A stretch of 56,146 bases of DNA from Candidatus Omnitrophota bacterium (GTDB lineage: Bacteria; Ratteibacteria; UBA8468; B48-G9; DTJG01): positions 1-56,146 of the forward strand of contig JAMDAS010000025.1 of NCBI GenBank assembly GCA_023484085.1, given 5' to 3'. The position numbers and the translations under genes were made by a program. Of this stretch, positions 14,290-55,937 are shown piece after piece. The notes beneath the pieces were generated by a model. That model was not told where the DNA came from. It saw only the letters and a list, made by a program, of their open reading frames with translations, and did no database searches. Within the stretch, counting starts at the first letter, position 1, and every line of letters begins with the position of its first letter.

Positions 14290-15390
14290 ATGAAATTCAA
14301 TGGTATTAATAACGGATTTGCCAATATAGCAAGGTTGTCAGATGCAGAAACAAGAATAATAACCGCAGAAAACGTTTATGGAGAAAAAGGCCTGGGTGGA
14401 ATGGCAGAAGTTTCAGATATACCCCAGGAGGAAGTTGTTAAAATAGGACAGAAGTGGGATGGACCTAATTCTTGTGCAAGAGACCTTGGAAAAAAATGGA
14501 AGGTCCGTCCCTGTATTACCCTTCCTTCAAAAAGCACCACGACAATTATGGATATTGACGGGCAGGGCTGTATCCAGCATATATGGATAACCGTTGACAG
14601 CAAGGTATACAGGGATTTGATAATCCGTATTTACTGGGATAATGAAAAAAATCCAAGTGTTGAAGTGCCCGTTGGGGATTTTTTTTGTAATGGCTTTAAT
14701 ACCAGGACTAACATACTTTCAATTCCAATCAACGTAAATCCTTCAGGAGGGTTTAATTGTTACTTCCCTATGCCATTTAAAAAACACGCCAAAATAACTG
14801 TTGAAAACAGGGCTCCTTTTGACCAGGGTGGATTCTTTTATGCAATAACGTATGCTTTAACCCAAATAGATAATGACGAAGCATATTTTCATGCTCAGTT
14901 TAGAAGAAAAAATCCTCTAATCTATATGGAGGATTACGTTATTCTTGACAACGTTAAGGGACAGGGCCACTATGTTGGAACAGGGATTGCCTGGCAGCAG
15001 AATAACAGCGGATGGTGGGGTGAAGGGGAAATAAAAATATTTTTGGATGGAGATAAGGAATTTCCCACAATCTGTGGAACAGGGACTGAAGACTATTTTG
15101 GAGGAGCATGGGGCTTTGGGCAGAATTTTAGTGCTCCATTTCTTGGATATCCCTCAGGCATCTGTGATGGAAAACCTGGTAACAGGCACATACTTTACAG
15201 GTTTCATATAATGGATCCTATCCGTTTCAAAAAAGACATCAAGGTAATCATCCAGGCAATTGGCTGGCGCAGTGGAGGCAGGTATCTTCCCTTGCAGGAT
15301 GACATATCCTCAGTAGCGTACTGGTACCAGACTGAACCGCATAATGAATTTCCGGCACTTGGCAGCCATGATGAGTTAGAGGTTATCTAA
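14290..15390 (+). CDS. GH172 (DUF2961) glycoside hydrolase
   Basis: The 366-residue protein has the DUF2961 hallmarks: PSKSTTTIMDIDGQGCIQHIW, VPVGDFFCNGF, MPFKKHAKITVEN, GWWGEGEIKIFLDGD and GTGTEDYFGGAWGF. The family is now GH172, with activities on fructofuranose-type and arabinofuranose-type linkages. The glutamates at about 245 (WGEGE) and 267 (TEDYF) correspond by position to the catalytic pair described for family members (alignment by eye). No signal peptide is visible, so it acts in the cytoplasm or by unknown export. A taaaggaaatcaat ribosome site precedes the ATG. It converges on cobT with a 4-base overlap of the gene ends. Substrate unknown. Confidence 0.92.
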   Translation: MKFNGINNGFANIARLSDAETRIITAENVYGEKGLGGMAEVSDIPQEEVVKIGQKWDGPNSCARDLGKKWKVRPCITLPSKSTTTIMDIDGQGCIQHIWITVDSKVYRDLIIRIYWDNEKNPSVEVPVGDFFCNGFNTRTNILSIPINVNPSGGFNCYFPMPFKKHAKITVENRAPFDQGGFFYAITYALTQIDNDEAYFHAQFRRKNPLIYMEDYVILDNVKGQGHYVGTGIAWQQNNSGWWGEGEIKIFLDGDKEFPTICGTGTEDYFGGAWGFGQNFSAPFLGYPSGICDGKPGNRHILYRFHIMDPIRFKKDIKVIIQAIGWRSGGRYLPLQDDISSVAYWYQTEPHNEFPALGSHDELEVI

Positions 15391-53833: not shown

Positions 53834-54922
53834 ATGAGAAAGTTTAAATTATTAGTTTTTATAGCAGGAGTATTATTTATATCTTTTTCTTTTGTTCATG
53901 CAGATGTTCTCACACAAAATCTGCTGCAAAATGGTGATTTTGGAAAAGCAGGTATTCCATTACCAGGGTGGAGTATAAATCTTTCACCTGGAGAAAGTTA
54001 TAAACTGACATCTGATGTTGTGATAGGAAAAAAAGCCCTTGAAATAGATTTACCTGTTGCCGGAAATGCAGATGTGATTTCTGCACCATCTCCTGTATCT
54101 GGTGGTGCTTCTTATCTTCTAATATTCTGGTATCATGCAAATGGCATGAGCACTAAAGGATGGACTTACCAGGGATGTAATTCATATTGTTCTATTATAT
54201 GGCAGGATGCAGGTGGAAAAGAAATAAAGAATACAAATGCCGTGGTCGGGTTACCATACGGGTCTGTAAAATATTATCAGCCTGCTACATTTACAACTAC
54301 TGCTCCAGAAAGGGCTGTGAAAGTTATTGTATCATTTAATATTGGGGTTGGGAAAGAGTATAAAGGACCCCCAACGTCCATCTTTATAGACGATATTCGT
54401 TTGATGAAATTAACAAAAGTCTCCATACCTGTAAAACCTGAAAAATGGGTATATTTACATCGCAATCTTAGTGCAGGATTAAAAATGGTAGAGGATAAGA
54501 ATGCAGAACATGGTCAGGCAATTATGGCTGCTCCTGGTGTAACTCCAAAATATACAGGATTGACATGGGGACAATACACAAAGGACCAGCCTGTGGGTGA
54601 ATATTTGGCCGTTTTCCGTCTGAAAGTAAAAAACAATACAAAGAAAGAACCTGTTGCCCAACTGGACGTTAATGATTTTGGAAATCTTAATGGTGAGATT
54701 GCAGAAAAAACGCTGTTTGCCACAGATTTTAAACATCCAGGGGTTTACCAGGATTTTACTCTCAGATTTGTGCGACCGGAAGCAGGAGTGCTGGAATTCA
54801 GGGTAATGTATCTTGGTACAACATCTCTTTCATTTGATAAAACCACAGTTATACAGCTGAAATCTTTAAAAACGGATAAGGAACAATTTGCTATCTGGTT
54901 CGGAAAAGGTTCTGTCAAATAA
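53834..54922 (+). CDS. Secreted carbohydrate-binding-like protein (CBM/jelly-roll)
   Basis: The 362-residue protein has signal peptide 1-23 (FVHA|D) and then LLQNGDFGKAGIPLPGWS, the usual opening of CBM4/CBM22-type jelly-rolls (NGDFE....GW). A strand-rich body (SGGASYLLIFWYHANG, FIDDIRLMKL) follows. A second domain (~215-360: KPEKWVYLHRNLSAGLKM, GEYLAVFRLKVKNNTKKEPVAQLDV) resembles the N-terminal domain of the glycosidase immediately upstream. No catalytic residues are seen. It starts 14 bases after the glycosidase with aggaggaaat. It probably binds the polysaccharide substrate of the locus. Confidence 0.78.
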   Translation: MRKFKLLVFIAGVLFISFSFVHADVLTQNLLQNGDFGKAGIPLPGWSINLSPGESYKLTSDVVIGKKALEIDLPVAGNADVISAPSPVSGGASYLLIFWYHANGMSTKGWTYQGCNSYCSIIWQDAGGKEIKNTNAVVGLPYGSVKYYQPATFTTTAPERAVKVIVSFNIGVGKEYKGPPTSIFIDDIRLMKLTKVSIPVKPEKWVYLHRNLSAGLKMVEDKNAEHGQAIMAAPGVTPKYTGLTWGQYTKDQPVGEYLAVFRLKVKNNTKKEPVAQLDVNDFGNLNGEIAEKTLFATDFKHPGVYQDFTLRFVRPEAGVLEFRVMYLGTTSLSFDKTTVIQLKSLKTDKEQFAIWFGKGSVK

Positions 54923-54923
54923 G

Positions 54924-55147
54924 AAATGAAATAAATATACCTGATAGCGAATTGCACAGTCACAGGAACAAAACAAGAAGAAAAGCGTCAGCGTTCGTGC
55001 AATCAGACTTTAGTCTCTTTGCAAAAACATGTTTGAACTCGCTGGCCGCAGTAGTATGCGGACAGGAGTGAGTTGTTTTTGGCACGATTTCTTTGTAGTT
55101 TTATCTGTGACAGAGCACCTGAGCGGACAGGTATATTTATTTCATTT
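54924..55147. repeat. 224-bp imperfect palindrome between the CBM-like and amidotransferase-like genes
   Basis: The outer arms are a perfect 20 bp (AAATGAAATAAATATACCTG at 54924-54943 with its complement at 55128-55147). Moving inward, GTCACAG/CTGTGAC (54959-54965 with 55105-55111), CGTGC/GCACG, GCAAAAAC/GTTTTTGGC and AACTCGCT/AGTGAGTT also pair, down to the CCGCA/TGCGG tip. No gene lies inside. It may be a non-autonomous mobile element (MITE) or a structured RNA. Confidence 0.75.
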
Positions 55148-55181
55148 TTGACAGAACCTCGGAAAAATTTAGGAGGGTAAA

Positions 55182-55937
55182 ATGAAAAATAAAACGTTGA
55201 TCCACTTTATATTGGTCAAAGCACTGATTTTTGGGTTTCTATTTACCACCTGTGTTTCAAGTTATGCTCATGCCCGGGATACAATTCTTGTCCTTGCAGG
55301 ATTGGGTAATAAAACCTATCTGCCCGTCAAACTTCTACATGAGACATTTACTTTTAAATATTCGTATTTGGCAAGTCTTCAGACAGGATTTGTTCTTGAT
55401 AAGCCTTTTCCCCAGAACTTTAAAAAGTTGAAAGGCATTAAAATCATTATTATGGCAGACGTTCCTGCCAGCGCCTTGAATGGTTTGTTGGGAAGAATGG
55501 CATTATGGGAGTTTGTAAAACATGGTGGTGGACTCTTATATTTTGGAGGTCCCTTTGCTTTTGGTAAAGGAGATATCAGGGATTCTTTATTAGAATCTGT
55601 CCTTCCTGTAACAACGACTGGCCCATGGGATATGATAAAATCTCCGGGACATGTTAAAACAACGGGCTATTCCTCAATAACTGCAGAATTGGATTGGAGT
55701 AAAAACCCATATATATTTTATGAACAGAAAGTTAAACCGAAATCCGGTTCAAATACACTTTTACGATGCAATGGAACACCGGTTTTGATAACGGGCAGAT
55801 ATGGAAAAGGAAAGGTGGCAGTATTTACCGGCACGTATTTTGGAAATCTTCAAAAAAATAAAAATCATGTGTTTTTCTATAAATGGCAGGACTATCCCGA
55901 ATTACTTACCAGGATACTCAACTGGCTGCGGAACTGA
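55182..55937 (+). CDS. Secreted amidotransferase-like (ThuA/GATase-type) domain protein
   Basis: The 251-residue protein has a signal peptide of ~31 residues (SSYAHA|RD) followed by a single class I amidotransferase-like domain: TILVLAGLGNKTYLPVKLLHETF, IKIIIMADVPASALNGLLGRMALWEFVKHGGGLLYFGGPFAFG, PVLITGRYGKGKVAVFTGTYFG. The same domain forms the C-terminal half of the protein at 50002, and relatives of it start the giant proteins of both loci. No nucleophile cysteine is seen at the elbow, so it is probably a binding or structural module. aggagggtaaa is the ribosome site. It is separated from the rest of locus B by the 224-bp palindrome. Confidence 0.75.
   Translation: MKNKTLIHFILVKALIFGFLFTTCVSSYAHARDTILVLAGLGNKTYLPVKLLHETFTFKYSYLASLQTGFVLDKPFPQNFKKLKGIKIIIMADVPASALNGLLGRMALWEFVKHGGGLLYFGGPFAFGKGDIRDSLLESVLPVTTTGPWDMIKSPGHVKTTGYSSITAELDWSKNPYIFYEQKVKPKSGSNTLLRCNGTPVLITGRYGKGKVAVFTGTYFGNLQKNKNHVFFYKWQDYPELLTRILNWLRN

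Follow-up and report, generated by a model that had tools for sequence, protein, structure and literature searches.

The window, the whole 56,146-nt stretch of DNA analysed here, carries a long imperfect palindrome between two co-directional genes on its plus strand. The upstream gene (53,834–54,922) encodes 362 aa and has no Pfam family at E 0.01, and the downstream gene (55,182–55,937) encodes a 251-aa GATase1_like protein (PF07090). A Pfam search also assigns gene 50002 to GATase1_like and gene 51609 to GH66 over residues 601–734. The palindrome, originally predicted at 54,924–55,147, has its perfect 20-bp arms where they were claimed, at 54,924–54,943 and 55,128–55,147 (plus strand). Those 224 nt fold as RNA at −82.1 kcal/mol against −51.1 (sd 4.7) for shuffled sequences (z −6.6; 0 of 200 as stable), in keeping with the claim that almost the whole segment can pair. 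The palindrome stands, but its predicted boundaries were too narrow: the inverted repeat runs outward to 54,908 and 55,158, giving an element of 251 bp (54,908–55,158, plus strand) whose full length folds as DNA with a z of −11.2. As predicted, the element splits the two genes and lacks one of its own; a coding gene was ruled out, as no ORF that fits entirely within it reaches 60 aa.

The element opens with the inverted end GGTTCTGTCAAA (54,908–54,919, plus strand) and closes with the matching end on the minus strand (55,147–55,158; TTTGACAGAACC on the plus strand), 23 nt from the next ATG. Direct reading places the 8-bp repeat TCGGAAAA, a target-site duplication, at 54,900–54,907, and its second copy lies at 55,159–55,166. 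Between the arms, a conserved structured core of 44 pairs (54,947–55,125, plus strand; covariance model R1) contains the conserved helix strand CAG-NN-ACAAAACAAG with a 2-nt bulge (54,963–54,977, plus strand). Its conserved partner strand (55,095–55,107, plus strand) reads GTAGTTTTATCTG here; in alignments A2 and A5, most relatives have GTAGTTTTGTCTG at this place. The AGGAGG read from the sequence at 55,171–55,176 (plus strand), a Shine-Dalgarno-like motif of the downstream gene, is intact.

The element also supplies the end of the upstream gene, whose final four codons (GSVK) and stop, GGT TCT GTC AAA TAA, occupy 54,908–54,922 on the plus strand. In the empty site reconstructed by eye from the window, the upstream gene would end in ATT TAG just before GAGG, an ending that the insertion replaced. 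A genome of the same genus (G001, 76% identity) has no element at the window locus. There, at locus L228 on contig C12, a single open frame of 596 codons spans both genes that flank the window element.

The draft genome that contains the window (62.6% complete, 27 contigs) carries four copies of the element. The further copies of the ends that the original prediction proposed to look for thus exist, since the other three copies are 98–99% identical to the window copy. Target repeats match at 8 of 8 positions in the copies on contigs C3 and C2 and at 7 of 8 on C14, while on C20 the contig end cuts the repeat after three matching bases. The left end of the C2 copy is GGTGTTCTG, two bases longer. 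Three features of a MITE are present: terminal inverted repeats (GGTTCTGTCAAA at both ends), target-site duplication in three of the copies, and near-identical copies that contain no gene. Because of the four near-identical copies, the inverted ends, the 8-bp direct repeats and the absence from the same-genus genome, the window palindrome is a MITE-like insertion, one of the two identities first proposed for it.

The putative mobilising transposase is probably of the DDE type, to which the 8-bp target repeats point. No match to the IS1595 or ISL3 families was found in the incomplete drafts of the window genome or G015. Six IS1595 loci occur in G007, G011 and G031, and the four of these that were examined lack the element ends; ISL3 is represented by one 33-aa fragment in G033, under the cut-off. 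Across eight genomes, three instances of the exact 13-base end do not belong to an element copy, one apiece in G006, G007 and G015, and the ORFs beside these three stray ends include no transposase to the eye.

Sequence comparison indicates that the inner core of about 170 nt is older than the window insertion and part of a family in this class. Parts of the core match diverged DNA in G006, G007, G011 and G015 among 99 genomes searched. A consensus of five cores (the window, L012, L014, L016 and L015) has 44 pairs, 20 of them with two-sided changes. Model R1, built from these five and run with the stricter filters applied to searches of more than 40 genomes, finds matches in 9 of 61 genomes, namely 9 of the 35 from the same class and 0 of the 26 from outside it. 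Genome G011 alone holds at least 128 R1 matches (150 of 378 candidates scored), some of them cut by contig ends, with contig-end copies possibly counted twice. Many stand in tandem about 300 bp apart. The G011 arrays at L013 (1–1060), L081 and L089 lie between co-directional genes and comprise up to four copies that recur roughly every 300 bp, and many G011 contigs terminate at or within an element copy.

A second model, R2, was trained on 20 cores of another type (from G029 and G033, with two from G015 and one from G031) and on no sequence from the window genome, G006–G008 or G011. R2 nevertheless recovers copies in all of these, and R1 and R2 each recover the other's copies. R2 matches 10 of 39 genomes, including G019 weakly at 29.8 bits. 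The exact pattern GTAGTTTTGTCTGNNNCGNAGC occurs in 10 stretches among 84,980 species genomes, a search from which records of the window's own genome were possibly excluded. These stretches come from five MAGs, of which three bear the label Candidatus Omnitrophota and the others 'bacterium' and TA06; we take this group to be the Ratteibacteria of GTDB. R1 finds its full core in nine of the ten stretches, and the tenth, L116, scores 14.7 bits. At 430–510 of L116 (MAG JAKPDB010000005.1) lies a half copy with one core strand and arm but no partner strand. Longer core variants of 200 nt carry a tip insert of about 66 bp, as at 14,812–14,877 of L244 (contig C90 of G029), and G033 has this insert at several places too.

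The core pattern has no exact counterpart in viral contigs, and within the element region of the window no Rfam family reaches its gathering score. Known RNAs were rejected there, the best matches being MIR8562 (23.3 bits, cutoff 211) and DdR1 (19.1, cutoff 70). Nine other element loci likewise gave no Rfam match to the element, and the sole match over threshold is a tRNA. Titles and opening lines of abstracts on Ratteibacteria, Omnitrophota and palindromic elements contain nothing about such repeats.

The core retains one long helix whose bulges stay in place, while the sequences of its two sides change together. In alignment A5 (20 of 25 f5-type matches, without L199, L203, L207, L212 and L216), 95.6% of cells pair, against 28.6–46.3% when partners are slid by 1–3 columns. 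In A2 (five of the seven A1 sequences, the two G011 rows being omitted as misaligned in the tip), 92.3% pair, against 36.1–47.4%. The compensatory changes anticipated for homologues appear as strong covariation among diverged relatives: two-sided changes number 104 in A5 against 29.3 in shuffles, with 0 of 500 reaching that count, and 33 in A2 against 11.2, a control that is lenient for both alignments as the sequences are related and the structures derive from the same alignments.

The outer arms behave alike. The 30 nt on each side of the core, which belong to no model, pair better with their own partner (mean 12.2) than with the partners of other copies (5.8), and 0 of 10,000 within-group permutations do as well. 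The own partner is best or tied overall in 25 of 38 copies, and best or tied within the group in 11 of 21 copies from G029 and G033. The 38 copies exclude L094, L096, L198, L103, L104, L223, L224, the second copy of L110, three of the four copies in the window genome and all but one from G011; copies found by R2 alone are left out of both the covariation and the arm counts. An earlier idea, in which every copy would have made an inverted duplicate of its own flank, was dropped because arms are alike between copies, which makes paired change the simpler account.

Closely related genomes show both persistence and turnover, as G029 and G033 share some element sites while others are empty in G033. 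Loci L200 (G033) and L213 (G029) have both flanks in common and arms that differ on both sides. At two sites on contig C78 of G033, G029 also carries the element at the same place. By eye, the G029 arms at the first site match except at one position, and G033 has a mosaic copy with mismatches there; at the second site the arms match in G033 and the G029 copy has some mismatches. In L242 on C78 (1800–2300), the arm type of one half differs from that of the other, as though two copies had recombined. Two sites on contig C90 of G029 lack the element in G033. REPIN-like repeats (e.g. GTAGGGGCTCGATTCATCGAGCCC...CCTAC) occupy the site at L267 and L272 of G033 where G029 has the element, and similar repeats lie in the flanks of other G029 and G033 copies. 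Within G011, 70 compensated changes stand against 116 G-U, 78 A-C and 183 other changes that are one-sided or unpaired. This excess of uncompensated changes implies that recent copies are not kept perfectly paired and does not support constant palindrome repair.

The original alternatives of a MITE or a structured RNA turn out to be one thing, a mobile element carrying a conserved hairpin core. That part of the prediction holds. The proposed control of downstream expression does not yet follow from it, nor does the choice of RNA over DNA, as the counts of G-U and A-C in paired columns are ambiguous: 30:23 in A3, 3:5 in A2, 29:12 in A5 and 116:78 inside G011. Neither strand stands out. G-U in A5 leans to the model strand, but 11 of the 29 fall in one pair. 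Among 13 tRNAs, G-U makes up 4.3% of pairs, a weak yardstick given that ARAGORN draws mostly standard pairs. That the internal loops stay fixed speaks for a folded strand being recognised, whether RNA or DNA.

Placement was counted against mechanical ORFs. Of the 61 G011 arrays analysed in this way, 42 have both neighbours called. In 35 of these 42, both genes run opposite to the model strand, so that the arrays lie between two same-strand genes in a single orientation; two have both genes on the model strand and five have one of each. Of the 40 arrays whose upstream-side gene has this orientation, 31 leave no more than 25 bp between the match and the end of that ORF. Inspection by eye reveals no target repeat at the G011 junctions, and at two array sites G013, of the same genus, has only about 15–16 bp from stop to start. 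The copies in G006, G007 and G008, taken with two other core types of G015, are opposite on both sides in 8 of 11 cases, opposite on one side and same on the other in one, and uncalled on a side in two. In the window genome, three of four copies have both genes on the model strand and the fourth has one side uncalled; both MITE-type copies of G015 in the count have one side on the model strand and the other uncalled. Relative to genes, the core of G011 and G006–G008 is oriented opposite to the copies in the window genome. Orientation is no rule of the family, as it is mixed in G029 (five opposite on both sides, two same on both, n = 11), G033 (three and three, n = 11) and G031 (one and none, n = 6).

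Among the 11 copies from the window genome and G015 that carry the end TTTTGACAGAACC, nine have it 20–27 nt ahead of an ATG, defined as the point where the longest frame within 45 nt starts. These nine are all the readable ones; of the other two, one lacks a start in that stretch and the other is truncated by the end of its contig. At L203, L206, L208 and L210 (G029 and G033), the right end of the element lies within about 15 nt of start codons of genes that we take, from how they read, to be rplF, uppS, ruvC and dnaX, and it may supply the ribosome-binding site. At L207 (G033) and L109 (G031), the element follows a tRNA-Cys-like gene, apparently the same locus in two genera.

One rival is a plain MITE without function, in which the hairpin is the transposon's own structure and placement reflects the purging of harmful insertions. 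Target repeats, near-identical copies, presence and absence between related genomes and the mixed orientation in G029, G033 and G031 all accord with this view, and gaps may be the only space left in packed operons. A parasite would need only its ends, yet here the ends vary by lineage while some 40 internal pairs and fixed loops are kept, and the orientation skew of 35 to 2 in G011 also counts against it, leaving the reading doubtful. Somewhat less likely again is a structured single-stranded DNA, in which the hairpin would be the site of a hairpin-dependent enzyme and the arms would be matched by hairpin repair or template switching instead of selection on RNA. Pairs that are almost wholly Watson-Crick, with G-U not clearly commoner than A-C, and arms that differ on both sides at orthologous G029 and G033 sites speak for it. 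The 8-bp target repeats suggestive of a DDE-type step, the common uncompensated changes among G011 copies and the G-U lean of A5, concentrated as it is, speak against.

A transcription terminator or insulator between operons is improbable. The G011 consensus (13 of 89 copies, at contig ends, dropped) has its hairpin followed by CCTTTTTTGACA in the sense direction, and the window region contains one weak terminator-like site, but that site is a 5-bp stem where 0.3 (sd 0.7) are expected, and by eye no T-run follows the hairpin in G007 or in G029 and G033 copies. Promoter-like sites in the window region number one, with 1.3 expected. We give very little credence to a site-specific recombination site resembling an integron attC, a motif defined as RYYYAAC/GTTRRRY. 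The imperfect palindromes, conserved bulges and tandem G011 copies about 300 bp apart recall such sites, but the element ends in GGTTCTGTC and not in that motif, the tandem period is too short for cassette genes, and the conserved sequence lies inside the hairpin.

On balance, the element is probably a non-autonomous mobile hairpin that would fold in the operon mRNA and affect its processing or stability. A transposase recognising the GGTTCTGTCAAA ends and leaving an 8-bp target repeat would have moved it between the co-directional genes, as an insert bearing the core, some 170 nt long, of an older family in this class. Its intercistronic position and the intact downstream Shine-Dalgarno motif suggest that it is most likely transcribed with the operon. 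The transcript would then form a long hairpin in the gap separating the two coding sequences, and this hairpin, if it acts as ERIC and Correia elements do, would affect mRNA cutting and the stability of the two halves; processing or stability of the operon mRNA thus seems the likeliest effect. A broader reading, offered tentatively and itself rather unlikely, is a class-wide mobile structured RNA: a portable intercistronic module whose conserved three-dimensional core would be read by a dedicated protein, with transposon ends in the window genome and G015 and lineage-specific arms elsewhere, and which the host would keep at operon junctions because it uncouples what happens to adjacent coding regions.

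The ends are what usually identifies a bacterial MITE, while the present family is recognised by a pair-conserved core. As core pairs are kept across several families and one genome holds so many matches, one can test directly for selection acting on structure in a small mobile repeat. In this uncultured group the family also sits at dozens of operon junctions, which would make these informative places to test intercistronic control by repeated hairpins.

Among known systems, REP and REPIN sequences resemble the element as extragenic palindromes in many copies, and REPs are described as 20–40 bp long and tagged by GTAG or CGTC (PMC3733652). They were ruled out for an element of 251 bp that ends in GGTTCTG. 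The Chunjie MITE of Geobacter is, in the portion of its source at hand, a 235-bp element in an operon with more intergenic copies, conserved ends and direct repeats; that portion makes no mention of a covarying core common to families, unlike the present element (PMC10969869). Correia or NEMIS elements of Neisseria are described as MITEs that have inverted ends and form, beside genes, an RNA hairpin cleaved by RNase III (PMC2229807, PMC10969869). Organism, ends and core all differ from those of the present element. ERIC (IRU, RU-1) of enterobacteria is described as a 127-bp intergenic repeat that forms a stem-loop, is co-transcribed with its neighbours and has an orientation-dependent link to mRNA stability (PMC2229807). 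The likeness to ERIC is one of description; the present element differs in its core, which covaries across families, and in its GGTTCTGTCAAA ends and 8-bp repeat.
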